Assembly (NCBI RefSeq): GCF_016722765.1
Contig: NZ_JAEQND010000019.1
Span: 1-64,000 of the forward strand
DNA length: 64,000 nucleotides
Reading direction: 5' to 3'
Source: Ramlibacter alkalitolerans
GTDB lineage: Bacteria; Pseudomonadota; Gammaproteobacteria; Burkholderiales; Burkholderiaceae_C
The notes under the pieces are model-generated. The model worked only from the letters and a program-made list of their open reading frames with translations. It had not been told where the DNA came from and did not search any database. Positions 6,399-33,267 of the stretch are shown here, one piece after another. Each line of letters starts with the position of its first letter. Position 1 is the stretch's first letter. The translations under genes were made by a program, and so were the position numbers.

Positions 6399-7385
6399 AT
6401 GCATCCACCCGTTCCCGCCCCTGACGACGGCGGCGCCCGCGCTCCGCTGGCCGCCGTCACCGGGGCGTCGGGCTTCATCGGCAGGCACGTCGTCGCCGCC
6501 CTGACCTCGGCGGGCTGGCGGGTGCGGCTGCTGCTGCGTCGTGCTCCCGAGGGCTCCGAATGGCGGCAAGCGCATCCCGAGGTCGTGGCGGGATCCCTCG
6601 AGGATGAAGCCGCCCTCGCCCGCCTCGTGGAAGGGGCCGACGCCGTCGTCCACCTGGCCGGCCTCATCAAGGCCGCGCGCCGGCAGCATTTCTTCGACGT
6701 CAACTGCAAGGCCGTGGCCCGGCTGGCGGAGACGGTGCGGCAGGTGGCGCCCGGGACCCACTTCGTGCTGGTGTCGAGCCTCGCCGCGCGCGAGCCGGCC
6801 CTGTCGGACTACGCGGCCAGCAAGCGGGCCGGCGAGTCGGCGGCGCGCGAGGTCCTGGGCCAGCGCGTGACGGTCCTGCGGCCGCCCGCGGTGTACGGTC
6901 CGCACGACCGGGAAACGCTGCGCTTCTTCCAGATCGCTCGCTGGCAGCGCATTCCGCTGCCAGGCCGCGCCGACGCCCGCGCAGCCCTGATCCACGTCCA
7001 GGATGCGGCAAGGCTGGTGGCGTCGATCGCGGCGGCATCGCCCCGCGGCGAAGTGCTTGCCATGGCGGACGCGCACCCGGAGGGCTACAGCTGGGAGGCC
7101 GTGCTGGCCGCTGCCGCGCGCGCCGTCGCCAACCCCGCGCCCCGGTTCTTCCAGGCGCCGCAGGGCTTGCTGAAGGGCGTGGCGCTGATCGGCGACGTGG
7201 CGCGCCTGGCCGGCTCGGCCAGCATGCTCAATTCCCAGAAGCTGCGCGAACTGCGCCACCCGGACTGGGGCGTGGCCGACGACGAACTTGCCAGGCCGGC
7301 GGGGTGGGCGCCCGAGTTCGACCTCGATGGCGGATTCGCGGATGCCGTCGCCTGGTACCGGGCCGCCGGCTGGCTGCGCAGCTGA
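6399..7385 (+). CDS. NAD(P)-dependent epimerase/reductase, candidate ceramide reductase (CerR-like)
   Basis: A 328-residue extended short-chain dehydrogenase. The nucleotide-binding TGASGFIG is at 21-28, VSS near 125-127 and the catalytic YAASK at 138-142. In Caulobacter an enzyme of this type acts after ceramide synthase to reduce the 3-keto group of oxidised ceramide; that role is inferred here from the serine palmitoyltransferase cluster. Alternative: a sugar epimerase for the head group. ATG 6399 is preferred over an in-frame TTG 6 bp upstream. The next gene starts 7 bp after it. Confidence 0.75.
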   Translation: MHPPVPAPDDGGARAPLAAVTGASGFIGRHVVAALTSAGWRVRLLLRRAPEGSEWRQAHPEVVAGSLEDEAALARLVEGADAVVHLAGLIKAARRQHFFDVNCKAVARLAETVRQVAPGTHFVLVSSLAAREPALSDYAASKRAGESAAREVLGQRVTVLRPPAVYGPHDRETLRFFQIARWQRIPLPGRADARAALIHVQDAARLVASIAAASPRGEVLAMADAHPEGYSWEAVLAAAARAVANPAPRFFQAPQGLLKGVALIGDVARLAGSASMLNSQKLRELRHPDWGVADDELARPAGWAPEFDLDGGFADAVAWYRAAGWLRS

Positions 7386-7391
7386 CGCGCC

Positions 7392-8459
7392 ATGGGCCAA
7401 GGCGCGGCGGCCATCTGGGTGCTCCTGGGCGCGCGGCATGGCGACAACCAGCAGTTGCTGGCGATCGCGCAAGCGCTCGGCCTGCCCTATCGCGTGATCC
7501 AGCTGCAGTTCAACGCCGCCGCCGCTCTGGCGCCCGTCCTGCTCGGTGCGACGCGGCTCTCGTGGCGCACCCGCGACGCGGAGCCGCTGCAAGCGCCGTG
7601 GCCGCCTGTGGTGCTCGCCGCGGGCCGCAGGAGCGTGCCGGCCGCACGCTGGATCCAGCGCCAATCGTCCGGCCGGACGCGCCTGGTCCACGTCAATCGG
7701 CCCTGGGCACCGCTGTCCTGGTTCGACCTGGTCGTGTCCACGCCCCAATACGCGCTGCCGCAGCGCGAGAACGTGCTGGTCAACCGCCTGCCCTTCGTGC
7801 CCGGCGAACCGGCCCGTGCCGTGGCCCTGCCCGCTTCGCTGCAACAGCACGCGGCGGCGATGCCCCGCCCCTGGACCCTGGTGATGGTCGGCGGGAACAG
7901 CCGGCCCTATGTCCTGGACGGCAGCGCCGCGATCGCGCTGGCGCAGCGGGTGAACGAACAGGTGCGAAGCAGCGGCGGCAGCGCGTGGGTCCTCGGAAGT
8001 CCGAGGACGCCGGCCACGGCGATGGATCGCATCGAGCGCGCGCTGGAGATCCCCGCGCAGGTCGTGCGCTGGGGCCGCGCAGAGAACCCTTACGCGGCTC
8101 TGCGCCGGACGGCGGACCGCTTCATCGTGACGATGGACAGCGCTGCGATGCTGACCGAGGCGCTGCTCAGCGGCCGGCCGGTGCTGCCGTTCGCCTTGCC
8201 GGCCCGGCCCGACTGGCGCTGGCGGCTGGCGTCGACGTGGCGCGCGGCGGCCGAACGCGCTCCCGCGTCGCTGCTCGCGCGAAGCTTCGATGCACTGCAG
8301 GACCTGGGCTGGCTCTCGTCGACGCGCGACGTCGGCCTGCTGGTCCGGGGGCTGGAAGCGGCAGGCGTCTTCGACGGCCAGGGGCGTGCCCCGGAACTCG
8401 CACGCCAGGAGCGGCAGGCCACGGTGACACGCATCCGCCGGTTGATCGACGCGAGCTGA
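7392..8459 (+). CDS. ELM1/GtrOC1-family glycosyltransferase-like protein
   Basis: A 355-residue protein that looks like the mitochondrial-fission-ELM1 family (GT-B-like fold). An N-terminal half with a GARHGDNQQ stretch precedes VMVGGNSRPYVLDG near 160-175, an ENPYAALRRTAD motif and FIVTMDSAAMLTEALLSGRPVLPF near 247-270, the usual nucleotide-sugar region. Bacterial members sit in envelope-glycan gene sets. It ends 6 bp from the convergent glycosyltransferase gene. Its substrate is unknown; adding a sugar to the cluster's lipid is a reasonable guess. Confidence 0.75.
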   Translation: MGQGAAAIWVLLGARHGDNQQLLAIAQALGLPYRVIQLQFNAAAALAPVLLGATRLSWRTRDAEPLQAPWPPVVLAAGRRSVPAARWIQRQSSGRTRLVHVNRPWAPLSWFDLVVSTPQYALPQRENVLVNRLPFVPGEPARAVALPASLQQHAAAMPRPWTLVMVGGNSRPYVLDGSAAIALAQRVNEQVRSSGGSAWVLGSPRTPATAMDRIERALEIPAQVVRWGRAENPYAALRRTADRFIVTMDSAAMLTEALLSGRPVLPFALPARPDWRWRLASTWRAAAERAPASLLARSFDALQDLGWLSSTRDVGLLVRGLEAAGVFDGQGRAPELARQERQATVTRIRRLIDAS

Positions 8460-8465
8460 CGCGCC

Positions 8466-9353
8466 CTACCCCGCCGTCACATCCGCCGCCCGGGCAACGC
8501 ACTCCAGCGCGTCGCGGCGCACATGGCCGCGCGCGATCTCGGCCTCCAGCAAGGCACGGTCGATGGAGCCGTTCTCCAGCGCTTCGCCGAGCAGCCGGAA
8601 GAACAGCCGCTCCTGCGCCGGATCGGGATGGCGCTTGTAGTGCCCGGCGCCGCGCCCGGTCAGCTTGCGCAGCCAGATGCCGGCACGCGAGCCGAGCGTG
8701 GTGCCGCGCGGCGTGAAGTCGGAGGGCAGCCCGGTCTTCCACGGCTGCGTGCGCCTGTGGGTGTTGTGCAGCATTCGCGTGTCCGGCGCCAGCCGGTCGA
8801 AATCGTTCCACTGCGACTCCAGCGGGGCGACCGTTCCGGGCGGCTCCAGCAGCAGCCACATCCAGTCGCGGTAGTCGCGCTCGCCGCGGAAGACGCGCTC
8901 GAAATCCGCCACCCAGTTCCAGTGCCGCAGGCGCGCGCAGTCCATCAGCATGACGCTGGACGCATAGTGCAGCGGCCGCCGCGAATCCGCCTCCATGCGC
9001 CGGGCCATGACGGCGGCGCCGCCCATGTCGCGATCGAGCAGATCGTTGATGTCCGCCAGCGCGAAGATGTCGGGGTCGATCAGCACGGCGCGCCCGGCGT
9101 AGGCCATCAACTCGGGGACGGCGAAGCGCAGCGGGGTGAAGGACTGCAGGTCGTCGTTGCGCCAGGTGGCCTGGCGGCCTTCGCGCAGGTAGCTGCGGCC
9201 TTCGAAGGCTCCGAGCGCCGGGAAATCGGTCGTCTGCAGGATGCGCACATCGAAGCGCTCCGGCGCCGCGCTGTGGCGCAGGAGCGCGTGCCGGGCAACC
9301 AGCGCGCCCACGATCTGCCTGGGATTGGTGTGGATGAAGACGGCGTTGCGCAT
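8466..9353 (-). CDS. Glycosyltransferase-like protein (DxD)
   Basis: A 295-residue protein. The start MRNAVFIHTNPRQIVGALVARHAL is preferred because the upstream frame is composition noise. LIDPDIFAL carries a DxD metal/nucleotide-sugar motif, and a hydrophobic-acidic pattern typical of GT-A enzymes follows. The C-terminal third holds SQWNDFDRLAPDTRMLHNTH. It lies last in the operon P450, AMP ligases, ACP, SPT, glycosyltransferases. A role in glycosylating the lipid is inferred from position. Confidence 0.65.
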   Translation of the reverse strand: MRNAVFIHTNPRQIVGALVARHALLRHSAAPERFDVRILQTTDFPALGAFEGRSYLREGRQATWRNDDLQSFTPLRFAVPELMAYAGRAVLIDPDIFALADINDLLDRDMGGAAVMARRMEADSRRPLHYASSVMLMDCARLRHWNWVADFERVFRGERDYRDWMWLLLEPPGTVAPLESQWNDFDRLAPDTRMLHNTHRRTQPWKTGLPSDFTPRGTTLGSRAGIWLRKLTGRGAGHYKRHPDPAQERLFFRLLGEALENGSIDRALLEAEIARGHVRRDALECVARAADVTAG

Positions 9354-9402
9354 ATCGGAACTCTGCCCTCCCTCAGGGCCGGCCCGGGCAGGCACGGCGC
9401 CA

Positions 9403-10251
9403 CTACGGATTCTGCTGCCAGTAAGCCTCGTCGCGCCGCACCAGCAGGTCCGCGGCGCGGCTCCTGCCATCGACCTTGCGCTGGCCTTTCATGTGGTCCA
9501 TGAAGCGGCCCAGGCGCGAGTTGATCAGCACGTGCGAGGCCTGCCAGCCGGCACCATCGGCGATGTCATGCACCCGCGCGCCGCGCGCCTGGGCCCGCTT
9601 GCGGACCACGTCGAACAGATAGGAGTCGTGGTATTCGCGCTCGGCCAGGAACAGGTCCTTGGCGTACATGTCCTCGAATTCCCGCAGCAGACGCCCGGCT
9701 TCGCGGTGCCGCAGGTTGTAGACCACGAAGCCGCACTCGCTGTGCTGCGGCCGCCGCAGGCACGCAACCACGCTGTCCGGCGGCGCCAATGCCGCCAGTT
9801 CGGCCATATCGACATCGGCGAAGAAGCGGGTATCGGCGTCGATCCAGATCAGGATGTCGGCCTCGGTGCGGCGGGCAGCGTCGAAGACCGCATGACTCTT
9901 GTGGGCGAACCGGATGGCGTCCCAGCGGTAGGCCGCCCTGTGCTCGCGCCAGGGCAAGGGAATCGCCAGCGGGCCCAGGCGCAGCCGGCGCCAGGGCAGC
10001 TCCGCGCCGCACACCCTCGGATCGTTCGCGTGCCGCGCCTTGAAGGCAGCCAGTTGCGGGCTGCAGGCCAGGAGGTCACGGGGCATGACCCGGCCGGGAA
10101 CCACCGGCGGCTCGAAGCCTTCGTGATACAGCAGCAGGGGAACGTCGGCCGGCCAGTGCGCGAGATAGCTCTCGAGCATGGTGCGCCCGTAATCGCGATA
10201 GCCTGCGGCGTGGCAGGTCGTCACGACGGCGAAGCTGCGGCGCGAAGGCAT
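9403..10251 (-). CDS. Glycosyltransferase-like protein (DAD motif)
   Basis: A 282-residue protein, start chosen at MPSRRSFAVVTTCHAAGY because that begins a typical Rossmann strand. ILIWIDADTRFFADVD contains the DxD triplet of GT-A glycosyltransferases, and a conserved-looking HSECGFVVYNLRH and a late HYD-type stretch (EYHDSYLFD) follow. It lies between the SPT gene and the second DxD protein with short gaps (25 and 49 bp), so probably one transcript. The sugar donor is unknown. Confidence 0.65.
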   Translation of the reverse strand: MPSRRSFAVVTTCHAAGYRDYGRTMLESYLAHWPADVPLLLYHEGFEPPVVPGRVMPRDLLACSPQLAAFKARHANDPRVCGAELPWRRLRLGPLAIPLPWREHRAAYRWDAIRFAHKSHAVFDAARRTEADILIWIDADTRFFADVDMAELAALAPPDSVVACLRRPQHSECGFVVYNLRHREAGRLLREFEDMYAKDLFLAEREYHDSYLFDVVRKRAQARGARVHDIADGAGWQASHVLINSRLGRFMDHMKGQRKVDGRSRAADLLVRRDEAYWQQNP

Positions 10252-10276
10252 GCGGTCGGGCGTACGGGAGCCGGCC

Positions 10277-11458
10277 TCAGCCGCGTGCCCGTTCCAGTGC
10301 CGCGAGGATGCGCCCGATATCCTCGTCGTCATGCGCGGCGCTGAGGCTCACGCGCACCAGGCTCACGCCGGCGGGCGTGGCCGGCGGGATCATCAGGTTG
10401 GTATAGACGCCCTCGTCCAGCAGCGCCTGCCACACCGACTGGGCCTGCGCGCGCTCTTCGAACACCAGTGCGGCCACGGGCCCCGGTGTCCGGCTGCCGA
10501 GGCGATAGCCCAGCCGGCCCGCCCCGGCATGGAAGCGCTCGGCGTGCTTCCAGAGCCGGGCACGCAAGGCCTGTCCGTCCAGCAGTTGCCGCAATGCAGC
10601 GCGCGTGGAGGCGATCGATGCCGGCGACGACGAGGCGGTGAAGATGTAGGGGCGGCTGACGAAGCGCAGCAGGTCCAGGTCGGCATGGCGGCCGACGCAG
10701 AAGCCACCCACGCCGCCCAGGCTCTTGGAGAAGGTGCCGACGATGAAGTCGACGTCCTGCAGCAGGTCGAGGTCTTCGCACAGGCCCAGGCCGCGCGGGC
10801 CGAAGATGCCGAAGGAATGCGCCTCGTCGACCAGCAGCCAGGCACCGTGGCGGCGCTTGACCTGCGCGATCTCGCGCAGGGGTGCCCGGTCGCCCAGCGT
10901 GCTGTACACCCCTTCGACCACGATCAGCGCCCGGCGCGCATCGTCGCCCAGGCGCTGCAGCCGGCGGTCGAGGTTGTCCGGGTCGTTGTGGCGAAAGCGG
11001 ATGGTGGTCGCGTTGCTGAGACGGCAGCCGTCGTGGATGCTCGCGTGGCTGTCCGCGTCCACGAGCAGGAAGTCGCCCGTGTCGGCCAGCGCGGAAATGA
11101 CGCCCAGGTTCGTCTGGTAGCCGGTGGAGAACACCATGCACGCGGGCCAGCCGAAGGCTTCGGCCAGCTCCTTTTCCAGCCCGCGGTGGCTGGCGTAGTT
11201 GCCGCTGGCCATCCGTGAGCCGGTGGTGCCGGTGCCCTGCGTTTCGATGGCTTCGATGGCGGCGGCGCGGCAGGCGGCGTCGAAGGTCAGGCCGAGATAG
11301 TTGTTGGTGCCCGCCAGCACCGTGCGCCGGCCGCCGATGGTGGCGCAGGTGGCCGAATGGATTTCGTCCATGGGCGTCGCGATGGGCGCGACGCCCCCCA
11401 GCTCCGCCAGGCTGGCGGCGAGGGCCCGTTGCGCAGCGAACTTGTCGAGCAGGTTCAC
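10277..11458 (-). CDS. spt: Serine palmitoyltransferase (alpha-oxoamine synthase family)
   Basis: A 393-residue PLP enzyme that condenses L-serine with an acyl thioester to 3-ketosphinganine. YGTG-like GTGTTGSRMASGNYASH at 76-91, stacking His 138 in DADSHASIHDG, PLP-contacting Asp 211 in VDEAHSFGIFG and Schiff-base Lys 245 in VGTFSKSLGGVGGF are all present. The stretch FSKSLGGVGGFCVG plus SRPYIFTAS closely follows soluble bacterial SPT (Sphingomonas type) rather than BioF or KBL. It starts at a GTG overlapping the ACP stop (GTGA), so it is coupled to its carrier protein. An aminoketone synthase for another acyl product is the main alternative. Confidence 0.85.
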   Translation of the reverse strand: MNLLDKFAAQRALAASLAELGGVAPIATPMDEIHSATCATIGGRRTVLAGTNNYLGLTFDAACRAAAIEAIETQGTGTTGSRMASGNYASHRGLEKELAEAFGWPACMVFSTGYQTNLGVISALADTGDFLLVDADSHASIHDGCRLSNATTIRFRHNDPDNLDRRLQRLGDDARRALIVVEGVYSTLGDRAPLREIAQVKRRHGAWLLVDEAHSFGIFGPRGLGLCEDLDLLQDVDFIVGTFSKSLGGVGGFCVGRHADLDLLRFVSRPYIFTASSSPASIASTRAALRQLLDGQALRARLWKHAERFHAGAGRLGYRLGSRTPGPVAALVFEERAQAQSVWQALLDEGVYTNLMIPPATPAGVSLVRVSLSAAHDDEDIGRILAALERARG

Positions 11459-11748
11459 GGATGGCGGCCGCTCAAGCCGTGGATGCCGGCGCGCAGCCCG
11501 TTGATGGTCCGCGCCTGCGCAAGCGTCTCGACCGGAATGGAGATGTCGAGGCGGTCCTCGATCTCCATCACGAGGTCCATCACGCCGATGGAATCGAGGT
11601 CGGCTTCCTGCATCAGGTCGGCGTCGCCGGCGAGGCCGCCGGAGCCGGGGCGGATGGCGGCGAGCGCTTCGCGGATGGCGTGTTCGATCGCGGCCGGGCT
11701 GGCGGAAGCGCCGGCGCCCTCAGCTGGAAGTGGTGAAGGCAGTGTCAA
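11455..11748 (-). CDS. Dedicated acyl carrier protein
   Basis: A 97-residue protein with the phosphopantetheine site EADLDSIGVMDLVMEIE (Ser near residue 53) and the usual four-helix pattern. It overlaps the AMP-ligase end by 29 bp and the SPT start by 4 bp, the same arrangement as the ceramide ACP of Caulobacter. The only in-frame start in front of the domain is TTG at 11748, without a clear ribosome-binding site, so translation may depend on coupling. It probably carries the acyl chain for SPT. Confidence 0.85.
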   Translation of the reverse strand: MTLPSPLPAEGAGASASPAAIEHAIREALAAIRPGSGGLAGDADLMQEADLDSIGVMDLVMEIEDRLDISIPVETLAQARTINGLRAGIHGLSGRHP

Positions 11749-13630
11749 GTGGGATGCTCGCAGGCCCGGTGCGCAGGCCGGTTTCGTCTTCTTCGAACAG
11801 CATGGGCGACTTCACGAGCCGGCTCGCGTCCGCGCAGCGGGCCAGGAAGTCCCTGCGCGCCATGCTGCGCGACAGCTTGCCCGAGGAGGTACGCGGCAAG
11901 GTGTGCGGCGGCACCAGCTCGATCAGGCAATGGATGCCGAATTCGGAATGGATCGCCTGCTTCAGGCGCGCGGCCAGTGATTCGAGCGTGCGCGAGTCGG
12001 TCTCGCGGCACTGCACGACCAGCACCGCCGTCTCGTTTTCCTCTTCGTCCGTCACGGTGAAGGCGGACGCATCGCTGGTGCGGACTTCGGGCTGCTGCTC
12101 CGCCAGGTATTCGAGGTCCTGCGGCCAGATGTTGCGGCCCTTGATGATCATCAGGTCCTTGATCCGGCCGGTCACGTACAGCGCGCCCTCGGCGCGGTAG
12201 CCCAGGTCGCCCGTATTCAGCCAGCCCTCGGCGGAAAGCACCGCCTGCGAAGCCTCGGGATTGTTGAAGTAGCCCGCCATGACGCTGGCGCCGCGCAGGT
12301 GGATGGTGCCGCACTGCCGCTCGCCGAGGGCGGCTCCGTCCTCGCCGCGGATCTCGACCTCGAAGCCCGGCAAGGGCCGGCCGCAGTCGATGAAAGCCTT
12401 GCCCTTCACGCCGGCTTCGTCCGCGCGCGGCGGCAGGGCTTCGCCGGTGCGCGACAGCCGGTCGACGTCGACCAGGTCGCTGCGGGGCATGCTGCCGACG
12501 GCCGCGAAGCTGACCGCCAGCGAACACTCGGCCATTCCGTAGCAGGGAAGGAAGGCCTGGGGGTGGAAGCCCGCCGGCGCCAGGATCTCGGCCACCTGGC
12601 GCAGGGATTCGGGATGGATCATCTCGGCGCCGACGCCGGCAACGCGCCAGTGCGAGAGATCGAGCAACGCCAGGTCCGCCGGCCGGATGCGGCGGGCGCA
12701 CAAGGTGTAGCCGAACGGCGGGCTGAAGGAGATCGTGGCGCGGTTGCGCGAAATGAGCCGGAGCCACAGCCGCGGCCGCATGGCGAAATCGCGCGTCGGC
12801 AGGTAGTCCACGGAGCGTTGCGTGGCGATGCAACCGAGCACGATGCCGACCAGGCCCATGTCGTGGTAGTGCGGCAGCCAGGAACAGAAGCGGTCTTGCG
12901 GCGTCAGCGCGAAGCCGTGGTTGAAGATCGCGAACAGGTTGGCCATCACCGCGGCGTGCGTGATCATGGTGCCGCGCGGGAAGCGCGTGCTGCCCGAGGT
13001 GTATTGCAGGTACGCCAGTTCGGAGGGGGCCGGCGGCACGGGCTGGGCCTCGTCCGCGGGAAGCGCCAGGAACTCGTCGAGCGTGCCCGCCAGGGCCAGC
13101 GGCAGCCCTTGCGCGGCCTCGTGCAGGAAACCGGCGAACTCCACCGGCGCGAACGCGGCCACGGCCTGGCAGTCGGCCAGCAACTGGCGCAGGTGCCTGA
13201 CATAGGCCTCCCGGCCGCCCAGGTGCACCGCCGCCGGCAGCGGAACGGGCACCAGTCCGGCGTACTGGCAGGCGTAGAACATGACGGCGAAATCGGGGTG
13301 GGTGTGCGCGACCAAAGCGACGCGCTGCCCCCGGCCCAGGCGGGCAAGCCGGCGCGACATGGCGAGCGCGCGCTGCCGCAGCTCGCGGTACGGCAGAGTT
13401 GCCGTGACCTCGTCCCGCCCGCCGTAGTAGTTGAAGCCCGACGCACCGGTGGCCGCGTAGTCGAGCGCCTCGGTGAGCGTGGAGAAGTCGGCGCTTCGCA
13501 ACGGGACGCCGCTTTCCGTCGGCGTCGGGGCCGGATCAACAGGTGTTTCTTTGATCAATGCCTCACCCTGTTCTTGTGGTCCGTCTCCGGAAAACGAGAG
13601 TTGCGCCGAAGCACTTCGGGCCTGCTCCAT
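11720..13630 (-). CDS. Fatty acyl-AMP ligase loading the ceramide ACP
   Basis: A 636-residue ANL-superfamily enzyme of the FAAL type. P-loop YTSGSTRFPRG is at 210-220, SWLPHYHDMGLVG near 248, the YGMAE motif near 365, the hinge GRIKDLMIIKGRNIWPQDLE and C-terminal PRTSSGKLSR follow. It activates a fatty acid as acyl-AMP and should pass it to the adjacent ACP. The first ~40 residues are unlike the family, so the true start could be downstream, for example a TTG at LIKETP. It corresponds to the acyl-ligase of known ceramide clusters. Confidence 0.82.
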   Translation of the reverse strand: MEQARSASAQLSFSGDGPQEQGEALIKETPVDPAPTPTESGVPLRSADFSTLTEALDYAATGASGFNYYGGRDEVTATLPYRELRQRALAMSRRLARLGRGQRVALVAHTHPDFAVMFYACQYAGLVPVPLPAAVHLGGREAYVRHLRQLLADCQAVAAFAPVEFAGFLHEAAQGLPLALAGTLDEFLALPADEAQPVPPAPSELAYLQYTSGSTRFPRGTMITHAAVMANLFAIFNHGFALTPQDRFCSWLPHYHDMGLVGIVLGCIATQRSVDYLPTRDFAMRPRLWLRLISRNRATISFSPPFGYTLCARRIRPADLALLDLSHWRVAGVGAEMIHPESLRQVAEILAPAGFHPQAFLPCYGMAECSLAVSFAAVGSMPRSDLVDVDRLSRTGEALPPRADEAGVKGKAFIDCGRPLPGFEVEIRGEDGAALGERQCGTIHLRGASVMAGYFNNPEASQAVLSAEGWLNTGDLGYRAEGALYVTGRIKDLMIIKGRNIWPQDLEYLAEQQPEVRTSDASAFTVTDEEENETAVLVVQCRETDSRTLESLAARLKQAIHSEFGIHCLIELVPPHTLPRTSSGKLSRSMARRDFLARCADASRLVKSPMLFEEDETGLRTGPASIPLDTAFTTSS

Positions 13631-13764
13631 TCACTTTCGGAGCCGCAAACTCTAGCGTTCGAAGACGATTCATGCAACGTGTGGCACCGGCGACTGTTCG
13701 CGTCGCGCGGTTTAGGCGCGCCAACTGGCGGCACGCGAGGATAGCTGGTATGGGACGCATGTGC

Positions 13765-24402: not shown

Positions 24403-24438
24403 CGGATGTCGATCCTCGCAGTTGCTGGCAGCAGGTCG

Positions 24439-25371: not shown

Positions 25372-25434
25372 CGATAATCACCCGCTGCCTTTTGGACTTT
25401 TCACGTTTTCGATCATGCCAAACCTTCATGCGCG

Positions 25435-26580
25435 ATGCGGCGGGCGGCCTCTGTGAGCACCGGTGACGCGGTGCACCCACGCGTGGCGGGTCGCGTCGTC
25501 GGCCAGTCCCCCTTGCGTATCTGGGGGCTGACTTCGGAGGCCCGCCTCAAGCGCCAGTTGCAGCGGGCCGGAGCCGATGCGCAAGGGGCCGACGCCGATC
25601 GCGTGGTGTTGCTGCGGGCGGACTGGGTCTACGACGAGGCGCTGGTGCGCGGCCTGGCCGCCGCGGCCGGCGATGTCGCCTTGTGTGCGGAGGAAGGCAC
25701 GGTGGTCGCCCTCGCCGTTGCGGCGGCGGACGCCGAGCCGGCATCGGCGGCCCTGGCGCAGGGACGCGCCCCGGCGGGCGCGCGCGCTCTCTCGCCCATG
25801 CAGGTCGCCGACGGCTACAACGACAAGCTGCGCAAACGCGAACCGCCCTACCTCTTGCCGCTGACCGCGGACAACCTGCCGGCGATCGAGCGCCGCACCT
25901 TCAGCGGCGCCTACAAGGGCGTGACCGACCTGGTCACGCTGTACGTCTGGCCGCGGCCGGCACGGTATGTCACCGGCCTGTGCGCCCGCTCCGGCATCAC
26001 GCCCAACCAGGTCACCTTCGCGAGCCTGCTGCTGGTGCTGGCGGCCATGTGGCTGTTCTGGACCGGCCGCTACGGCATGGGCCTGCTGGCGGCCTGGGCC
26101 ATGACCTTCCTGGACACCGTCGATGGCAAGCTGGCGCGCGTGACGCTGCGTTCCTCGCGCTTCGGCGACATCTTCGACCACTCGATCGACCTGATCCATC
26201 CGCCCTTCTGGTGGTGGGCGTGGATCGTCGGCCTGCCGGCCGTGGGCCTGGCGCTGGAGCATCCGGCCCTGTGCCTGTGGGCCATCGTGGCCGGCTATGT
26301 GCTGCAGCGCCTGGAAGAAGGCGCCTTCATCGCCTGCTTCGGCATCGAGATGCATGTCTGGGAACGCTTCGACAGCCGCTTCCGCCTGTTCACGGCGCGG
26401 CGCAACCCGAACCTGCTGCTGCTGACGGCTTCGTTCCTGTTCGGCCGCCCCGACCTCGGCATCGAGGCCGTGGCCTGGTGGACCGTGCTCTCGCTGCTGG
26501 TCCACGCCCTGCGCCTGCTGCAGGCCGGCCTGGCGCGCCGCCGCGGCCCGCTGCGTTCCTGGCTCGCGGCACCGACGTGA
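25435..26580 (+). CDS. Second CDP-alcohol phosphotransferase with N-terminal NTP-transferase-like domain
   Basis: A 381-residue paralogue of 20496-21704. The N-terminal ~140 residues again resemble a degenerate nucleotidyltransferase (RIWGLTSEARLKRQL, VVLLRADWVYD). The membrane domain shares the entry motif YKGVTDLVTLYV with its paralogue's YKGSTDLLTRWV, and has the complete signature starting DTVDGKLAR and ending DHSID. First gene of the rightward operon. Overlaps the Tam41-like gene by 4 bp (GTGA), so its lipid or alcohol donor may be made by that neighbour. Confidence 0.82.
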   Translation: MRRAASVSTGDAVHPRVAGRVVGQSPLRIWGLTSEARLKRQLQRAGADAQGADADRVVLLRADWVYDEALVRGLAAAAGDVALCAEEGTVVALAVAAADAEPASAALAQGRAPAGARALSPMQVADGYNDKLRKREPPYLLPLTADNLPAIERRTFSGAYKGVTDLVTLYVWPRPARYVTGLCARSGITPNQVTFASLLLVLAAMWLFWTGRYGMGLLAAWAMTFLDTVDGKLARVTLRSSRFGDIFDHSIDLIHPPFWWWAWIVGLPAVGLALEHPALCLWAIVAGYVLQRLEEGAFIACFGIEMHVWERFDSRFRLFTARRNPNLLLLTASFLFGRPDLGIEAVAWWTVLSLLVHALRLLQAGLARRRGPLRSWLAAPT

Positions 26581-27521
26581 ACGAGGACCTGCCCGCGCTG
26601 GTGGACGCGGAGCTGCGCCGCCCGGTGCCGCCCGCCGTGGCGGCGCTGGCGCAGCGGCTCGCGGCGCGCGCGCGGGGAGGCGCCCTCGCCGTGCTGTTCT
26701 ACGGGTCGGCCCTGAGGGACGATGCGCTCGACGGCGTGCTCGACTTCTACGTGCTGGTCGAGCGCGCGGACGACTGGCCGCAGTCGCGCACGGCCGCCTG
26801 GGCCAACCGCATCCTGCCGCCCAACGTGGGCTACCTGGAAGACCCCGGCGCAGCCGCGAGCGCAAACCGCCGCCTGCGCGCGAAATATGCGGTCATGACG
26901 CTGGCGCAGTTTCGCCGGGCCATGTCCGTGCGACGCATCGACACGACGCTCTGGGCCAGGTTCTCCCAGCCCTGCGCGTGCGTGCAGGCCCGCCACGCTG
27001 CGGCATTCGAGGCGGTGCGCGAGGCCATCTGCGATGCGATCGTGACCGCAGCGCATTGGGCGGCAGCGCTGGGGCCGCCCGCGGCCGACGCGGCCAGCTA
27101 CTGGCGCGCCTTGTACCAGCGCACCTATGCGGCAGAGCTGCGCGTCGAATCGTCTGCGCGCGCCGTGGACCTGGTGGGCCGGGACGCTGCGCGCTTCACG
27201 CGGCTGCTGCCACTGGCCTGGCGCGCAGCCGGTATCGCTTTCAGCGCCGCCGAGGATCGAATGGTCCCCCTGGTGGGCGCTGCCGAACGCGCGGAGGCCG
27301 AAACGCGCTGGCAACGCCGTCGACGGCTGGGCCGGCCGCTGAACCTGTTGCGCCTGCTCAAGGCGGCGCTCACCTTCGAGAACGCCACCGACTATGTCGC
27401 CTGGAAGGTGGAGCGCCACAGCGGCCTGCGCATCGAGCCGACCGCGTTCCAGCGGCGCCATCCGCTGCTGGCCGCGCCGGCCCTGTACTGGCGCCTGCGC
27501 AGGCTCGGCGTGCTGCGCTGA
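26577..27521 (+). CDS. Tam41-like CTP:lipid-phosphate cytidylyltransferase
   Basis: A 314-residue protein with the Tam41 pattern: VLFYGSAL near 38-45 (NTP-binding), LDFYVLV near 53-59, NRILPPNVGYLE near 77-88, KYAVMTLAQF, then LWARFSQP, and a basic C-terminal helix region ending ALTFENATDYVAWKVERHSG. Mitochondrial Tam41 makes CDP-diacylglycerol from phosphatidic acid and CTP. Between a CDP-alcohol phosphotransferase and a lipid kinase it could make CDP-diacylglycerol or, more unusually, CDP-ceramide. The start is a GTG overlapping the previous stop. Confidence 0.7.
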   Translation: MNEDLPALVDAELRRPVPPAVAALAQRLAARARGGALAVLFYGSALRDDALDGVLDFYVLVERADDWPQSRTAAWANRILPPNVGYLEDPGAAASANRRLRAKYAVMTLAQFRRAMSVRRIDTTLWARFSQPCACVQARHAAAFEAVREAICDAIVTAAHWAAALGPPAADAASYWRALYQRTYAAELRVESSARAVDLVGRDAARFTRLLPLAWRAAGIAFSAAEDRMVPLVGAAERAEAETRWQRRRRLGRPLNLLRLLKAALTFENATDYVAWKVERHSGLRIEPTAFQRRHPLLAAPALYWRLRRLGVLR

Positions 27522-27538
27522 AAACCCGGGACACCGCC

Positions 27539-28339
27539 ATGCACCTGCCGACCTGCCTGCGCCGCCCCGTCGTGACCGCCCTCGGCCTGCTGGCGCCCTT
27601 CGCCACCGCGCCCGCTGCGCCGGCCGCAGACCCGGGTGCCGCACCGGCGCAGGCGGTTCACGTCGCCGCCGAAGCCGCCGCCAGCGCCAGGACCTATCCC
27701 ACCGCCATCGCGCGCTCCTTCACCTTCAACTACCTGATGCAGCGGGGCGGCCTGCGCGGCAGCTGCGAACTGAGCTGGGCCCGCACGGGCGGCAAGTACG
27801 AGGCGCGCCTGAAGGGCACGGTGGCCGGCTTCACGGTGCTGGACTGGGCGAGCAGCGGCGGCTTCGATGCGGCGGGCGTCGCGCCCAGCCTGTACGTCGA
27901 ACATCGCCTGGGCAAGTCCGACCGGGACGTGCGCTTTCGCAAGGCCGAATCGCGCATCGTCTTCTCCGGCACGCGCAGCAGCGACATTCCCTTCGTCGCC
28001 GGCGTGCAGGACCGGGTGAGCTGGCTGGTCCAGCTGCCGGCGATCCTCGCCGCCGATCCGGCCAAGGGCCGCGCCGGAACCCGCGTCGCGCTGTACGTCG
28101 TCGGCACGCGCGGCCGCGCCGGCGACTGGGTCTTCCAGTCGGAAGGCCGCGAGACCATCAAGACGCCGATGGGCACCCTGCACACGGTGAAGTGGACCCG
28201 CCAGGCCGGCAAGGGGGACGACCTGGAGGCCGAGGTCTGGCTGGACGTCGAGCGCCACTACCTGCCGGTGCGCATCCGCCTGACCTTGGCCGGCTCGGAA
28301 GCGGCGCTGGACATGACGCTGGCCGACGCCAGTCCTTAG
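27539..28339 (+). CDS. DUF3108 periplasmic protein
   Basis: A 266-residue protein with a signal-like N-terminus and an Ala-rich linker to about residue 50. The rest is a beta-rich DUF3108 domain (SFTFNYLMQRGGLRGSCEL; TPMGTLHTVKWTR; VWLDVERHYLPVRIRL). DUF3108 proteins are of unknown biochemical function and periplasmic. Located 17 bp after the Tam41-like gene, it may bind or shuttle the lipid in the periplasm; this is a guess from context. Confidence 0.78.
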   Translation: MHLPTCLRRPVVTALGLLAPFATAPAAPAADPGAAPAQAVHVAAEAAASARTYPTAIARSFTFNYLMQRGGLRGSCELSWARTGGKYEARLKGTVAGFTVLDWASSGGFDAAGVAPSLYVEHRLGKSDRDVRFRKAESRIVFSGTRSSDIPFVAGVQDRVSWLVQLPAILAADPAKGRAGTRVALYVVGTRGRAGDWVFQSEGRETIKTPMGTLHTVKWTRQAGKGDDLEAEVWLDVERHYLPVRIRLTLAGSEAALDMTLADASP

Positions 28340-28434
28340 GGCCTGGCCGCCCGCAGGCGGCAAATGCAGAACCGTTTGCGGGGGTTTGCCGTGGCCGGTA
28401 TGCTCCATCACCCCCAGATTCCCTTGCCCGCCTC

Positions 28435-29553
28435 GTGGACGCCACTTCACTTCCCGGTCACTACGGCACTGCACGCGCGAGCTTCGGCGCGAAGGACTTC
28501 GGCTGGCGCGACCAGGCCCACGGCCTCGTCGCCGACCTGTTCGAGCGCTCCCCCGCCATCTACTGGACGGATTTCCTCCTGAGCAGCCTGACCGGCTGGG
28601 CCTTGACGGCGGTGTACTTCCGCGCGCAGCCGTTCAGCGCCCTGCAGGTCGCGGCGTTCCTGCTCGCCAGCCTGCTGTTCTTCCGGGCCGGCACCTTCAT
28701 CCACGAGATCGTGCACATGCCGCGAGACCAGATGGTGGGGTTCAAGCGCGCGTGGAACCTGCTCCTGGGCATTCCTTTCCTGATGCCGTGGGTGATGTAC
28801 AGCAACCACGTCGAGCACCACAACCACCGCCGCTTCGGCACGCCGGGCGATGGGGAGTACCTGCCGCTCGGAGCCTCGCCCACCACCGAGATCTTCAAGT
28901 ACCTGGCGCAGGCGCCGCTGCTGCCCCTGTTCATGCTGCTGCGGTTCGGCGTCCTCGGCCCGCTGTCCTGGTTCCATGCGAAGCTGCGCCACTGGGTGCT
29001 GACGCGCGCGTCCGCGGCCGTCTCCAACCCCTACTACAGCGAACCCTTTCCGAAGCGGCTGGCGGGGCACCTGCAGCTGATGGAGGTGCTGTGCCTGCTG
29101 TACCTGCTCACGCTGGGCCTGCTGGTGTGGCGCGACGTGATCACCCTGTCCCAGGTGGGCATGGGCTACCTGCTGCTGGCGTTCACGCTGGGCCTGAACT
29201 GGGTGCGCAACCTGGCGGCGCACCGCTACGTCAACGACGGCACGCAGATGGACCACGCGAGCCAGGTCGCGGAGTCCATCAACATCACGGGCCAGACCTG
29301 GCTGACCGTCGCCCTCTTCCCGGTGGGCCTGCGCTACCACGCGCTGCACCACCTGTTCCCCGCGCTGCCGTACCACAACCTGGACGAGGCGCACCGCCGC
29401 CTGATGCAACACCTGCCGGCCGATGGTTCGTACCGCGCCACCAACCGCGACAGCTTCTTCGCCGCCGTCGGCGAGCTGTGGCGGTCCGCGCGTGCAACGG
29501 CCCCCGAGGCGTCGGCGATGCGCGCGTGGCTGCCGCGCTCTGGTCGATCTTGA
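28435..29553 (+). CDS. Membrane fatty-acid or sphingoid desaturase/hydroxylase-like enzyme
   Basis: A 372-residue integral membrane di-iron enzyme of the desaturase superfamily with three histidine clusters: HEIVH near 86-90, HVEHHNHRRFG near 123-133 and HALHHLF near 302-308, plus four hydrophobic segments. The start is a GTG (VDATSLPGHYG) 95 bp after DUF3108. It may introduce a double bond or hydroxyl into the acyl chain or long-chain base; sphingolipid desaturases belong to the same superfamily, but regiochemistry is unreadable. Overlaps the lipid kinase start (TTGA). Confidence 0.8.
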   Translation: MDATSLPGHYGTARASFGAKDFGWRDQAHGLVADLFERSPAIYWTDFLLSSLTGWALTAVYFRAQPFSALQVAAFLLASLLFFRAGTFIHEIVHMPRDQMVGFKRAWNLLLGIPFLMPWVMYSNHVEHHNHRRFGTPGDGEYLPLGASPTTEIFKYLAQAPLLPLFMLLRFGVLGPLSWFHAKLRHWVLTRASAAVSNPYYSEPFPKRLAGHLQLMEVLCLLYLLTLGLLVWRDVITLSQVGMGYLLLAFTLGLNWVRNLAAHRYVNDGTQMDHASQVAESINITGQTWLTVALFPVGLRYHALHHLFPALPYHNLDEAHRRLMQHLPADGSYRATNRDSFFAAVGELWRSARATAPEASAMRAWLPRSGRS

Positions 29554-30563
29554 ACGCGCGCCTGGGCGCCGTGCCCGATCCCGCAGCAGCCGGCGTCGAA
29601 GGCGCCTCGCTGCCGCCCTGCCTGATCGTCAACCCGCTGAGTTTCCGCGCCTCGCGCGGACTGGCGCAAGAGGCGTGCGAACTGGCGCGCGCACGCGGGG
29701 CCGAGGTCGTCTCCATCGACAGTCCAGCGGCGCTGAGCGCCGCGGTCGAAACCATCCTGGCGCGGCGCCAGCGCAAGGTCATGGTGCTGGCGGGCGACGG
29801 CACGGTGCGCGCGGTGGTCGAACAGCTCGCCGCCCTGCCCGCCGGCGCCTGGATCCCCGATCTCCTCGTTCTCCCGGGCGGCCGCACCAACCTCATCGCG
29901 AACGACCTGATTCCCGGCGCCGCGGCGCTCGACCTGCTGCGGCGCGCGCTGGCCCCGGCGCATCGCTGGGACGCGAGCATCGCCGAACGCTTCACCTTGT
30001 GCATCGAGCAGGATGGCGCGCCGGCGCGGCACGGGTTCTGGGTCGGGGCGGCGCTGATCGACAGCGTGATCCGGCGCACCCACGAACATCGCGCCGGCGG
30101 TACCGGTGCCCTGAGGACGGGGCACCTGAGCACCGTCGCTGCCTTGCTCGGGCTCGCATCGAAGGCGCTGCGCGGACGCTCCGGCCTCACTGCCCCGCGG
30201 CTGCGCGTGCGCGCCGGCGCCGCGGGCGTGCTGATGGAAGGCCCGGTCAGCCTCCTGGTCGCCACGACGCTGCACCATCGCAAGGGCCTGTTCGATCCTT
30301 ACGTCTCGCGCGCCGCGGACGACCTGCGGCTGACCGCCGTGTCGCGCCACGCCGACCGCTTCTGGGCCTGCCTGCCGCGCCTGTTGACCGGGCGTTTTTC
30401 TCCGGCGATGGATCCCGCCCACGGCTACGTCAGCGGCAGCTTCGCGCGCGTCGAGATCACCGGCGTGGCCGGCTACTCGCTCGACGGCGAGGCCTATGAC
30501 GCCGATCCGCAAAGACCCTTGATCCTGCGGCGCGGCACGCGCCTGCGCTTCGTCGTCGCATGA
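29550..30563 (+). CDS. Diacylglycerol/ceramide kinase-like lipid kinase
   Basis: About 337 residues of the DAGK catalytic family. VMVLAGDGTVRAVVEQL holds the ATP-binding GDGT (the usual first Gly is Ala), and LPGGRTNLIANDL replaces the common PLGTGND. The C-terminal half is the beta-rich domain with SLDGEAYD near the end. The start is uncertain: TTG 29550 overlaps the desaturase stop, and GTG at 29526 or 29571 are in frame. With ceramide genes nearby, phosphorylation of ceramide, as shown for a Caulobacter homologue, is the leading idea. Confidence 0.78.
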   Translation: MNARLGAVPDPAAAGVEGASLPPCLIVNPLSFRASRGLAQEACELARARGAEVVSIDSPAALSAAVETILARRQRKVMVLAGDGTVRAVVEQLAALPAGAWIPDLLVLPGGRTNLIANDLIPGAAALDLLRRALAPAHRWDASIAERFTLCIEQDGAPARHGFWVGAALIDSVIRRTHEHRAGGTGALRTGHLSTVAALLGLASKALRGRSGLTAPRLRVRAGAAGVLMEGPVSLLVATTLHHRKGLFDPYVSRAADDLRLTAVSRHADRFWACLPRLLTGRFSPAMDPAHGYVSGSFARVEITGVAGYSLDGEAYDADPQRPLILRRGTRLRFVVA

Positions 30564-32338
30564 GTCCCTCATCCGCGCCGAAGGCCACGAGCACCGCGCA
30601 GGCGCGCGGCGCACTGCCCATGGTGCGTGCCTTCGTCCAGGCCTACCCGGGCCGCAGCGCAGCGGCCTTCGTGGCCGTCTTCATCGCCGGCCTGATGGAC
30701 GGACTCGGCATGTCGATGCTGCTGTCGATGCTGACGCTCACCACCTCGGGTGCCGGGCACAAGGCGTCCCTGCCGGAGCAGGTCGCGACCCGCATCGCCA
30801 CCTTCCTCGGACTGCAGCCGACGGCGCCGGTGCTGCTGGCGCTGGCCATCCTGCTGATCGCGCTGAAGGCGGTGTTGACGCTGCTGGCCAACAAGCAGGT
30901 GGGCTACGCGGTGGCGCACATCGCCACCGACCTGCGCCTGGCCGCGATCCGCAGCGTGATGGCGGCGCGCTGGAGCTACTACCTGAAGCAGTCGGCGGGC
31001 CGCCTGTCGAACGCGATCGCGACCGAGGCGCAGCGGGCCTCCGAAGCCTTCCAGTACAGCGCCGAGATGGCGGCGATGCTGCTGAACTCGCTGATCTATC
31101 TCGGGATCGCGCTGTCGATCTCCTGGCGGGCGGGCCTGGCCGCGGGCATCGCCGGCGGGCTGCTGCTCGCCGTGCTGCACGTGCTCATTCGCACTTCCCG
31201 GCATGCGGGCCAGCACCAGACCCGCTTGCTGACCTCGCTGCTGTCTGCCACCGCGGCCCTGCTGGCGGCCGCCAAGCCGCTCAAGGCCATGGCCCGCGAG
31301 GACCACGTGGATGCACTGCTGTCCGACCAGATGAAGCAGTTGCGGCGGGCCCTGCGCAAGCAGGTCGTCAGCCGCGAGGCCTTGAGTGCCTGGCAGGAAC
31401 CGCTGCTGGCGATCATGGTCGGCATCGGCTTCTTCCTCAGCCTCGTGGTGCTGCAGATGCCGCTCGCCGCCGTGCTGGTGATGCTGTTCCTGCTGGCCCG
31501 GGTGGTGAGCTATCTGTCGAAAAGCCAGCGTTCCTACCAGCAGATCGTGGTGCGCGAGAGCGCCTACTGGTCCCTCATGGACAGCATCGCGGCGGCGCGG
31601 GCGGAAGTCGAGCCGGAGGGCGGAACGCAGACCGTGCAGCTGTCCGCGGAGATCCGCTTCGATGCCGTGCGCTTCCGCCATGCCGACGGCCGGCTGGTGC
31701 TGGACGACGCCTCGTTCGCCATCGCCGCCCGCGAGCTGACCGTCATCGTCGGCCCCTCCGGCGCCGGCAAGACCACCCTGCTCGACCTGGTCGTGGGCCT
31801 GCACCGGCCCGAGGCCGGGACCATTTCCATCGACGGGGTGCCGCTGCACGAACTGTCGATCCGCGAATGGCGGCGCCAGATCGGCTACGTGCCGCAGGAC
31901 ACCGTCCTGGTGAACGACTCCATCGCCTACAACCTGGCCTTCGGCGAAGAAGGTCTCGCCGAAGCGGACCTGCGCGAGGCGCTGCAGGCGGCCAACGCGC
32001 TCGAGTTCGTCGACGCCCTGCCGGACGGCTTGCGCACCCTCGTCGGCGAGGGCGGCTGCCGGCTCTCCGGCGGCCAGCGGCAACGCCTGGCCATTGCCCG
32101 CGCGCTGGTGCACAAGCCGCGGCTGCTGCTGCTCGACGAGGCGACCAGCAGCCTCGATGCGCAGGCGCAGGCGGCCGTCATCGAGACGGTGCAGCGCCTC
32201 AAGGGCAGCCTGACCATCCTCGCCGTCACCCACCAGGAGCGGATGATCGCCGCGGCCGACCGCATCTACCGGCTGGCCGGCGCGCAGGTGAGCGCCGATC
32301 CCGCAGCCGGCCAGCCGAAAAGATCCCTGCAGGCATGA
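30560..32338 (+). CDS. MsbA-like lipid ABC exporter (fused membrane and ATPase domains)
   Basis: A 592-residue half-transporter. Six membrane spans lie within ~25-320. The ATPase has Walker A GPSGAGKTTLLDL near 397-409, Q-loop YVPQDTVL, signature LSGGQRQRLAIARAL, Walker B LLLLDEATSSLD and H-loop AVTHQE. The architecture matches lipid flippases such as MsbA. It is coupled to the lipid kinase (ATGA) and the acyltransferase-like gene, so flipping the finished lipid across the inner membrane is the likely job. Confidence 0.85.
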   Translation: MSPSSAPKATSTAQARGALPMVRAFVQAYPGRSAAAFVAVFIAGLMDGLGMSMLLSMLTLTTSGAGHKASLPEQVATRIATFLGLQPTAPVLLALAILLIALKAVLTLLANKQVGYAVAHIATDLRLAAIRSVMAARWSYYLKQSAGRLSNAIATEAQRASEAFQYSAEMAAMLLNSLIYLGIALSISWRAGLAAGIAGGLLLAVLHVLIRTSRHAGQHQTRLLTSLLSATAALLAAAKPLKAMAREDHVDALLSDQMKQLRRALRKQVVSREALSAWQEPLLAIMVGIGFFLSLVVLQMPLAAVLVMLFLLARVVSYLSKSQRSYQQIVVRESAYWSLMDSIAAARAEVEPEGGTQTVQLSAEIRFDAVRFRHADGRLVLDDASFAIAARELTVIVGPSGAGKTTLLDLVVGLHRPEAGTISIDGVPLHELSIREWRRQIGYVPQDTVLVNDSIAYNLAFGEEGLAEADLREALQAANALEFVDALPDGLRTLVGEGGCRLSGGQRQRLAIARALVHKPRLLLLDEATSSLDAQAQAAVIETVQRLKGSLTILAVTHQERMIAAADRIYRLAGAQVSADPAAGQPKRSLQA

Positions 32339-33267
32339 CGCCGGCGCAGGAAGCACCCGACCTGGGGCGCCGGCTGCGGCGTGCACGGCGCCGGATGCTG
32401 TTCCTGGGCCTGCGGGCGCTGCTGCGCGTGATCGGCTTCGGCGGCATCGGCGTCGTGGGCAGCGTGGCCGGAGCCCTGCAATTCCACTTTGCGCGGCGCC
32501 AACGCAGGCGCATCGAGCATGACATGGCGCTGGCGCTGGGGCGGCCGCCCGGCGATCCGGCCGTGCGCGCGCTGTTGCGCGAAGCCTATCGCGTCAACAA
32601 CACCGCCGTGCTCGAAACCCTGGCGATGTTCGATCGCCATCTCGACGAGCAGCAACTGGGCGAGCGCTGCGAGATCGCAGGCCTCGACGAGCTTCGCAGC
32701 GCGATGGCGGCCGGCCGCGGCGCCATCCTGCTGGCCACGCATGCGGGCAATGCGGCGCTGCTGCCGGTGAAGCTGGCGCACGCGGGCTGGGCGGTCAGCG
32801 TCGTCTATCGCGAGGCGCGGATGATGTCCGCGGGCTTCCTGCAGGCCGGCCTGGAGCGCTACGGCATCGAAGGCATCCTGGCGAACACCGGCCTGCGCGC
32901 CTATGGCCAGATGCTGGCCGCGCTGAAGCAGGGCCGCATCGTCTTCCTCATGATGGACCAGGGCGTGCGCGCGCCCAGGGACGGACTGCCCGTGCGCTTC
33001 CTCGGCAAGGAGGCCGCCATGCCGGCCGGCCCTTCGCAGCTCGCACGGGCGGCGCGGGCGCCGCTGCTCCCCGTGGTGACGACGGCGGCCAGGCCGCTCT
33101 GGCACTTCACCATCCGGCCGCCGGTCACGCTGGGACAGGGCCCGATCGAATCGGATGTCGAAACGCTGGCCCGGCTGACCGAGCGGCAGATCCTCGACTA
33201 CCCGCATCTCTGGAGCTGGCACCAAAGGCGGTGGCGCAAGATTGCCCCGGGCCCGGTGCATCCGTAG
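32335..33267 (+). CDS. LpxL/HtrB-family acyltransferase-like protein lacking the acidic catalytic residue
   Basis: A 310-residue protein with an N-terminal membrane segment (LFLGLRALLRVIGFGGIGVV) and the lysophospholipid-acyltransferase pattern: YREARMMSAGF, LKQGRIVFLMMDQG, PVRFLGKEAAMPAGPSQLA. The catalytic HX4(D/E) site reads HAGNAA, so the acidic residue is replaced by Ala. It may therefore use another mechanism or have a non-catalytic role. Last gene of the rightward operon, starting on the ABC transporter stop (ATGA). Confidence 0.78.
   Translation: MTPAQEAPDLGRRLRRARRRMLFLGLRALLRVIGFGGIGVVGSVAGALQFHFARRQRRRIEHDMALALGRPPGDPAVRALLREAYRVNNTAVLETLAMFDRHLDEQQLGERCEIAGLDELRSAMAAGRGAILLATHAGNAALLPVKLAHAGWAVSVVYREARMMSAGFLQAGLERYGIEGILANTGLRAYGQMLAALKQGRIVFLMMDQGVRAPRDGLPVRFLGKEAAMPAGPSQLARAARAPLLPVVTTAARPLWHFTIRPPVTLGQGPIESDVETLARLTERQILDYPHLWSWHQRRWRKIAPGPVHP

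Follow-up and report, generated by a model that had tools for sequence, protein, structure and literature searches.

The first 64,000 nucleotides of contig NZ_JAEQND010000019.1 of Ramlibacter alkalitolerans (the window, part of an 82,755-base draft contig) contain a sphingolipid-type cluster of 26 genes at positions 5989-33267. It is probably a complete set of genes, acquired horizontally, for making and exporting an anionic phosphosphingolipid of the Caulobacter CPG/CPG2 type, to which tailoring functions have been added. As far as can be judged from the sequences, the cluster very probably builds a ceramide, adds a charged phosphoglycerate-type head group and ships the lipid towards the outer membrane. 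The support for this consists of similarity, gene order, motifs, co-occurrence and presence on a conjugative plasmid, from which every enzymatic step, the export route and the roles of the cytochrome P450 module and of an additional CDP-alcohol phosphotransferase (CDPOH_A) are inferred. Judged by its genes, the core is the known CPG2 pathway, and the expanded form, which is plasmid-borne in a relative, is the new part.

A preliminary description of the interval 6399-33267, which runs from the start of CerR to the stop of an LpxL-like gene, had named a serine palmitoyltransferase (SPT), a dedicated acyl carrier protein (ACP), an acyl-AMP ligase, a ceramide synthase and a reductase, next to a 4'-phosphopantetheinyl transferase (PPTase), a P450, a desaturase, a kinase, head-group transferases and exporters. 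All of these were found in the interval. Pfam gathering cut-offs were passed by ACP, P450, PPTase, both CDP-alcohol transferases, both LptF/LptG proteins, the kinase, the desaturase, the ABC exporter and the LpxL-like protein. Genes were called with a codon-usage script and family scans and by reference to the annotation of plasmid pDCB2 of Diaphorobacter sp. JS3051; for ACP, FAAL1, PPTase and CDPOH_B it is uncertain where the gene starts. Strand (+ or −) and spacing divide the cluster into a small gene at 5989 and five apparent transcription units: CerR and an ELM1-type glycosyltransferase (unit 1, +); P450, a second fatty acyl-AMP ligase fused to an ACP (FAAL2-ACP), FAAL1, ACP, SPT and two putative glycosyltransferases (unit 2, −); PPTase and CpgD (unit 3, +); phosphoesterase, HIT protein, LptF2, LptG2, CDPOH_A, the ceramide synthase CerS and a CC_1153-type gene (unit 4, −); and CDPOH_B, CpgC, a DUF3108 protein, desaturase, kinase, ABC exporter and LpxL-like protein (unit 5, +). 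The small gene (5989-6306, −) is divergent from CerR and its product has a signal-like N terminus. Since it is 53% identical over 95 aa to a pDCB2 protein at the same divergent place, we assign it to the conserved left edge of the cluster. The GC content is 0.69-0.73 across 6001-34000 (2-kb steps) versus 0.59-0.62 across 1-6000.

The cluster is not a chance grouping, since the same gene set is found again in other genomes. For the comparisons, the named genomes were scanned with a ceramide-synthase alignment and the best 80 of 585 relatives were kept as loci; counts among these loci are lower bounds, as many loci end at contig ends, and the thresholds were chosen by us.

All five structural genes of Caulobacter-type ceramide synthesis (aasR, acpR, spt, cerS and cerR), which have been described for C. 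crescentus (PMC11324152), are present. SPT (10277-11458, −) scores 579.9 bits with the NCBIfam model for betaproteobacterial SPT (NF047599, cut-off 500) and 440 bits with the alpha model (cut-off 670), and it aligns over almost its full length with the solved Sphingomonas SPT structures. The AasR-like fatty acyl-AMP ligase FAAL1 (11720-13630, −) reaches 763 bits with model NF006624 (cut-off 600). The AcpR-like ACP (11455-11748, −; PF00550, carrier serine in DSI) was recognised by its Pfam family and its place and not by likeness to the Caulobacter ACP; the dedicated ACP of sphingolipid synthesis is the subject of PMC9386255. CerR (6399-7385, +) is a predicted NAD-dependent SDR reductase (Epimerase family PF01370) with GxxGxxG and YxxxK motifs and shares 43-51% identity with the SPT-adjacent SDR in loci L081, L083 and L056. 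CerS (19360-20499, −; CC_1154 type) occupies the same position as its counterparts in the two Caulobacter loci compared gene by gene (L083 and L081) and is 53-55% identical to them. It had been described as a GNAT-type ceramide synthase; the assignment as ceramide synthase holds, while the GNAT type could not be confirmed, as there was no Pfam or NCBIfam match at E 0.01. A search of the PDB with CerS gave nothing useful.

It is very unlikely that the SPT homolog takes another amino acid and that the cluster makes an unrelated aminoketone or a lipopeptide-like natural product. PPTases and P450s are common in natural-product clusters, FAAL2-ACP is annotated as a non-ribosomal peptide synthetase on pDCB2, and this SPT has an isoleucine where the solved Sphingomonas SPTs have an arginine (R378). 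We compared 54 SPTs, of which 44 came from the 80 named loci, one from the window and nine from elsewhere; loci lacking a full stop-free match were left out. All 54, those of the Caulobacter loci included, have I, L or V at the R378 position, which therefore says nothing against serine, so that the missing arginine was rejected as a sign of another substrate. The equivalents of H159, D231, H234, K265 and R390, in contrast, are invariant in 54/54 (the numbering of all six positions is our assumption). Moreover, SPT is accompanied by the ceramide synthase, CerR, the kinase and LptF/LptG.

The preliminary description could not match the enzyme mix to a described product. This does not stand for the head-group half, because the gene order of Caulobacter sp. 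Root343 (L083) equals the published one and the contacts of CpgD are kept; for the FAAL-ACP/PPTase/P450 module and for CDPOH_A, no described product was met in the literature searched. The Root343 order is FAAL-CerR-SPT-CpgC-CpgB-CpgA-phosphoesterase-HIT-LptF-LptG-CerS-CC_1153-CpgD, which matches the order published for the CC_1165-CC_1152 CPG/CPG2 set (PMC11324152); no ACP was picked up there by similarity, though one would be expected between CerR and SPT. In C. endophyticus the order is the same starting with CerR, except that CpgD lies some 5 kb further away. Identities between window and Root343 range from 30% (kinase) to 53%. With C. crescentus CC_1168-CC_1152 the cluster shares the five ceramide genes, CpgA, CpgC, CpgD and a candidate CpgB, CC_1153, the CC_1157 and CC_1158 positions and LptF2/LptG2, a likeness seen by way of two other Caulobacter species and the published order and not from the C. 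crescentus sequence itself. In contrast to Caulobacter, the genes are regrouped here, with CerR, CpgD and the kinase away from their Caulobacter neighbors, and FAAL2-ACP, PPTase, P450, CDPOH_A, DUF3108, desaturase, ABC exporter, LpxL-like and glycosyltransferase genes are added. CpgD, CC_1153, CpgA, CpgC, LptF2 and LptG2 occur together within the flanks of 22 of the 80 loci, 20 of which also have the phosphoesterase and 21 the HIT protein. The CPG2 set has been published for a betaproteobacterium as well, namely Nitrosomonas eutropha (PMC11324152), where the ceramide and CPG2 genes are spread over three regions, whereas they form one cluster here.

CpgD (17760-18557, +), a predicted CTP:phosphoglycerate cytidylyltransferase, is the counterpart of the gene at the CpgD position in Caulobacter. 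The biochemistry of CpgD is treated in PMC12275187, and its contact residues are named in a structure preprint (PMC13228409). When mapped by spacing (offset 2-3) and not by alignment to the C. crescentus sequence, G12, R16, N90, T93, N110, G111, S170 and W201 correspond to G15, R19, N93, S96, N112, G113, S173 and W204; seven of these eight CTP/phosphoglycerate contacts are identical, T93 is replaced by serine, and T88, a backbone contact only, by alanine. The orthologs of CpgA, CpgC and CC_1153 are 53%, 44% and 51% identical to those of Root343 and lie at the published positions. CpgA corresponds to CDPOH_B (25435-26580, +; PF01066; CC_1159 position), CpgC (26577-27521, +) is 44-47% identical to the genes at the CC_1161 position in L083 and L081, and the CC_1153-type nucleotidyltransferase (18579-19358, −) belongs to NTP_transf_3 with a weak CofC match. 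The CpgB-like lipid (ceramide) kinase (29526-30563, +; PF00781, the DAGK domain) has a GDGT motif and the CC_1160 position, and a metallophosphoesterase (24439-25371, −; PF00149) is 45% identical to its counterpart at the same place, the CC_1158 position, in L083.

The gene at the CC_1157 position (23959-24402, −) is annotated as HIT-family protein on pDCB2; its product had no Pfam match at E 0.01, and its HxHxH motif looks degenerate (HFHIL). CC_1157 has been called probably unrelated to the pathway (PMC11324152). Nearly all loci with CpgA also have the HIT gene (34 of 35, versus five of 45 loci without CpgA; the counts come from related genomes that are not independent, and from contigs of which many are cut). 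This suggests a place for CC_1157 in the head-group pathway.

The preliminary description had called sphingolipids rare in betaproteobacteria, and the rarity of the cluster in this lineage is supported. CerS was found in two of 60 genomes of the genus, namely R. alkalitolerans and one distant match (704 versus 202 bits), and in 18 of 399 genomes of the order (E 1e-30, at least 90% complete), R. alkalitolerans included. Fourteen of these 18 come from a single family (f15), which we guess to be the Nitrosomonadaceae. SPT exceeded its cut-off in six of 250 members of the family sample, again including R. alkalitolerans. The set recurs on pDCB2, in Variovorax sp. N23 and in Ramlibacter sp. H39-3-26, while the added genes vary between loci.

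The plasmid pDCB2 (NZ_CP065408.1) is a 77.6-kb IncP plasmid, conjugative according to the PLSDB prediction. It covers 91% of 6399-30563 at 78%, followed by the ABC and LpxL-like genes; its cluster lacks a match to the gene at 9403-10251. A Tn3-family transposase flanks the pDCB2 cluster on one side and ars/mer genes on the other, and pDCB2 is 90.6% identical to Variovorax sp. N23 over 20.4 kb. A CerS tree was built from 77 rows, of which 71 came from the 80 loci, one from the window and five from elsewhere. In this tree, the window falls into a group with pDCB2, Variovorax and Ramlibacter (100/99), and this group sits in a 12-row clade (100/98) with a Panacagrimonas metagenome-assembled genome (MAG) of the Nevskiaceae as outermost member. 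The patchy distribution and the conjugative plasmid pDCB2 suggest that the cluster spreads horizontally and was probably acquired in this way. A horizontal transfer of sphingolipid genes into gammaproteobacteria has been suggested (PMC11324152). We met no report of a mobile sphingolipid cluster in the literature searched, a coverage outside of which most subscription papers lie, and a term search of the main text of the JS3051 genome paper (PMC8406286) found no words beginning with pDCB2, lipid or IncP.

Other SPT-bearing plasmids include pPNP1 of Pseudomonas sp. JS425, a Klebsiella michiganensis plasmid and p1-HV1 of Roseomonas mucosa (NZ_CP034925.1); 22 of the 23 SPT plasmid records are below 60% identity. 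R. mucosa p1-HV1 shares SPT, FAAL, CerR, CerS, CpgA-, CpgC-, CpgD- and CC_1153-like genes as well as LptF/G, HIT, phosphoesterase, an ELM1 glycosyltransferase and an annotated kinase. In the 31 kb read, it differs by the lack of a P450 or PPTase match and by matches to FAAL2-ACP (35%) and CDPOH_A (39%) that are of paralog grade only; a sterol-desaturase-family gene adjoins its CerS. The K. michiganensis plasmid (L034, IncFIB), which is typed as conjugative, carries FAAL, CerR-like, ACP, SPT and CerS-like genes and an LptF/LptG pair. On pPNP1 (L033, 13006-14750), an IS5-family transposase gene directly adjoins a partial ceramide-synthase match. In Ramlibacter sp. H39-3-26 (G023), the cluster is split between CerS and CC_1153, and its halves lie inside two contigs (L172; L039/L040); loci L047 and L172 of this genome are identical over 16,738 bases.

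CDPOH_A (20496-21704, −; PF01066) retains, like CDPOH_B, the full catalytic motif DxxDGxxAR(8)GxxxDxxxD. It was found in seven of the 80 loci and is present in Ramlibacter sp. H39-3-26. Among 23 genomes chosen because they match SPT or CerS, six have CDPOH_A-grade matches (67-100%) and five FAAL2-ACP-grade matches (60-100%), with 37% only in genome G042. Neither kind of match occurs in the 14 genomes of family f15. It is possible, though we would put this forward tentatively, that the orthologs have drifted and that CDPOH_A and the glycosyltransferases give rise to a different, glycosylated or other CDP-alcohol-derived head group, as in a glycosphingolipid or an inositol-type lipid. The cluster does hold one glycosyltransferase-family gene and two weak candidates, both CDP-alcohol transferases match inositol-phosphate synthase models (far below cut-off), and their joint profile matches DIPPS/PIPS structures; the absence of CDPOH_A-grade matches from the f15 genomes and G042 can be counted on the same side. 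Yet the CpgA/B/C/D and CC_1153 set is kept, including the contact residues of CpgD, and sugar and phosphoglycerate decorations can coexist. A second CDP-alcohol transferase such as CDPOH_A could be the unknown transferase postulated in PMC11324152, even though loci L049 and L054 have lost it.

The genome encodes four PF03739 proteins, which form two LptF/LptG pairs, one in the cluster (LptG2, 21701-22768, −; LptF2, 22765-23946, −) and one elsewhere. Because the cluster adds a second pair to the other one of the genome, it points to an export to the outer membrane. An MsbA/HepA-like ABC exporter (30560-32338, +; PF00005/PF00664, NCBIfam matches below cut-offs) is also encoded in the cluster. 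An identity of this exporter with the CC_1166 flippase found no support, as a clear ortholog was missing from the two Caulobacter genomes compared.

What is new is the superstructure of FAAL-ACP, PPTase, P450, second CDP-alcohol transferase, desaturase, LpxL-like protein, ABC exporter and glycosyltransferases. FAAL2-ACP (13765-15723, −; PF00501 and PF00550) has its carrier serine in LNSL, seen by eye, while a motif pattern search found none; no relative was found in viral contigs. The P450 (15729-17039, −; PF00067) has the heme motif FSAGPRFCIG, and the PPTase (17086-17769, +) belongs to PF01648. Orthologs of all three occur together in the same seven of the 80 loci, those of FAAL2-ACP at 57-69%: Variovorax sp. 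N23, five Burkholderiales MAGs (one labelled Rhizobacter) and one Panacagrimonas MAG. CDPOH_A has not quite the same set of loci. Enzyme class and co-occurrence suggest that the three form an acyl-hydroxylation module. No described product for this module or for a second CDP-alcohol transferase was met in the literature, where the P450 was not a subject of the search.

The desaturase/hydroxylase (28435-29553, +; PF00487) is a predicted membrane protein with HEIVH, HVEHH and HALHH boxes. Concerning a reading as hydroxylase of the Caulobacter CC_0202 type, there is a 35% homolog in Root343 and a short match (E 1.7e-4) in C. endophyticus; no homolog was found in R. mucosa, and a PDB search gave nothing useful. 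The DUF3108 protein (27539-28339, +; PF11306) has a signal-like N terminus, might be a periplasmic factor and is also present in pDCB2, Variovorax and Ramlibacter. Among the 80 loci, whose flanks often end before the place of these genes, the desaturase (at least 40%) was matched in three and the DUF3108 protein in two.

The glycosyltransferases named in the preliminary description held up to a differing degree. An ELM1/GtrOC1-type putative glycosyltransferase (7392-8459, +; PF06258) bears the same annotation on pDCB2. The assignments at 8466-9353 (−; GT8 family PF01501 at E 0.0015, below cut-off) and 9403-10251 (−; a DxD motif and no Pfam match) are weak. The former gene is 80-85% identical to genes in G202, G192 and pDCB2 and 30% to one in G103; the latter has a 74% match in the Variovorax sp. 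N23 locus (L048), and none in the other 79 named loci nor in 14 further loci.

Several observations weigh against a CPG2-type lipid with a coherent set of additions. The Caulobacter set includes LptC2, and none was recognised among the genes scanned here with Pfam families; the ABC exporter has no clear ortholog in the two Caulobacter genomes. The kinase shares only 29-30% identity with its counterpart at the CpgB position of L081 and L083, and its putative orthology with CpgB is supported by position and domain more than by identity. CpgC showed no convincing similarity to any known cytidylyltransferase in the Pfam scan and the PDB profile search. A Tam41-type CDP-lipid synthase was considered for CpgC and not adopted; the GS...D motif fits, but Pfam Tam41 matched one of 37 family members at E 0.067, and other Pfam matches were as weak, so that this reading rests on the InterPro note for CC_1161 (PMC11324152).

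Among the added genes, the P450 is missing in G192 despite the presence of FAAL2-ACP and PPTase, L049 and L054 from the same clade have no CDPOH_A, and G401 has CDPOH_A without a FAAL2-ACP match at E 1e-80. The additions therefore appear to have been gained or lost in steps and are not one indivisible unit. The LpxL-like protein (32395-33267, +; PF03279) has relatives of 55-73% identity in G103, G192, G401, G023 and pDCB2. All six proteins keep the histidine and lack the acidic partner of HxxxxD/E, which we take to be the catalytic dyad of LpxL-type acyltransferases; since the dyad is missing in 6/6, this weakens the case for an O-acyltransferase, and O-acylation is doubtful.

The sporadic occurrence in two of 60 genus genomes, R. 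alkalitolerans included, and the integron cassette array that abuts the cluster could also mean a decayed or silent island without a product. This is hardly probable, as no stop lies inside any reading frame used for the cluster genes and the codon bias is strong throughout. Catalytic motifs are present in P450, ACP, both CDP-alcohol transferases, desaturase, kinase, CerR and PPTase, and the SPT lysine is kept in the 54-SPT comparison, whereas the motif patterns used for FAAL2-ACP, SPT and LpxL matched nothing.

For a CPG2-type cluster, the following route is likely. FAAL1 would load a fatty acid onto AcpR, SPT would join the AcpR-bound acyl group with serine, and N-acylation by CerS and reduction by CerR would give dihydroceramide. 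The CpgB-like kinase would form ceramide-1-phosphate, and the phosphoglycerate head would be built by CpgC, CpgD (via CDP-glycerate), the CC_1153-type nucleotidyltransferase and CpgA. CDPOH_A would probably add a further CDP-activated unit or take over one head-group step. FAAL2-ACP, activated by PPTase, might hold a second fatty acid, which the P450 most likely hydroxylates before its use by CerS (or another acyltransferase), and the desaturase/hydroxylase might modify a chain. Finally, the ABC exporter could flip the lipid, and LptF2/LptG2 could feed it into an Lpt bridge towards the outer membrane.

If a cluster for a CPG2-like lipid sits on a conjugative plasmid, outer-surface chemistry becomes a transferable trait. 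CPG2, an anionic sphingolipid, can take the place of lipopolysaccharide (LPS) in Caulobacter (PMC13228409). As a speculative extension, one could imagine a self-contained LPS-like assembly line that conjugative plasmids carry from one member of the Burkholderiales to another and that provides the recipient with a new outer-leaflet lipid beside LPS. Its parts, no less tentatively, would be the ceramide anchor, a P450-oxidised chain on the FAAL-ACP/PPTase carrier, sugars, the phosphoglycerate head, the ABC flippase and LptF2/LptG2.

All 59 genus genomes searched contain matches to parts of the right flank, not as one block. The integron cassette array on the other side (window 345-5645) contains eight attC-like repeats, six of which fit the core pattern of our script. 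Contig C10 of the same genome (100696-107602) has seven more beside an integron integrase (447.7 bits, cut-off 265), and the contig of the window may continue this array. Four of the five larger open reading frames tested in the array have no Pfam match; one at 2430-2963 has a match to MtlR (mannitol repressor).

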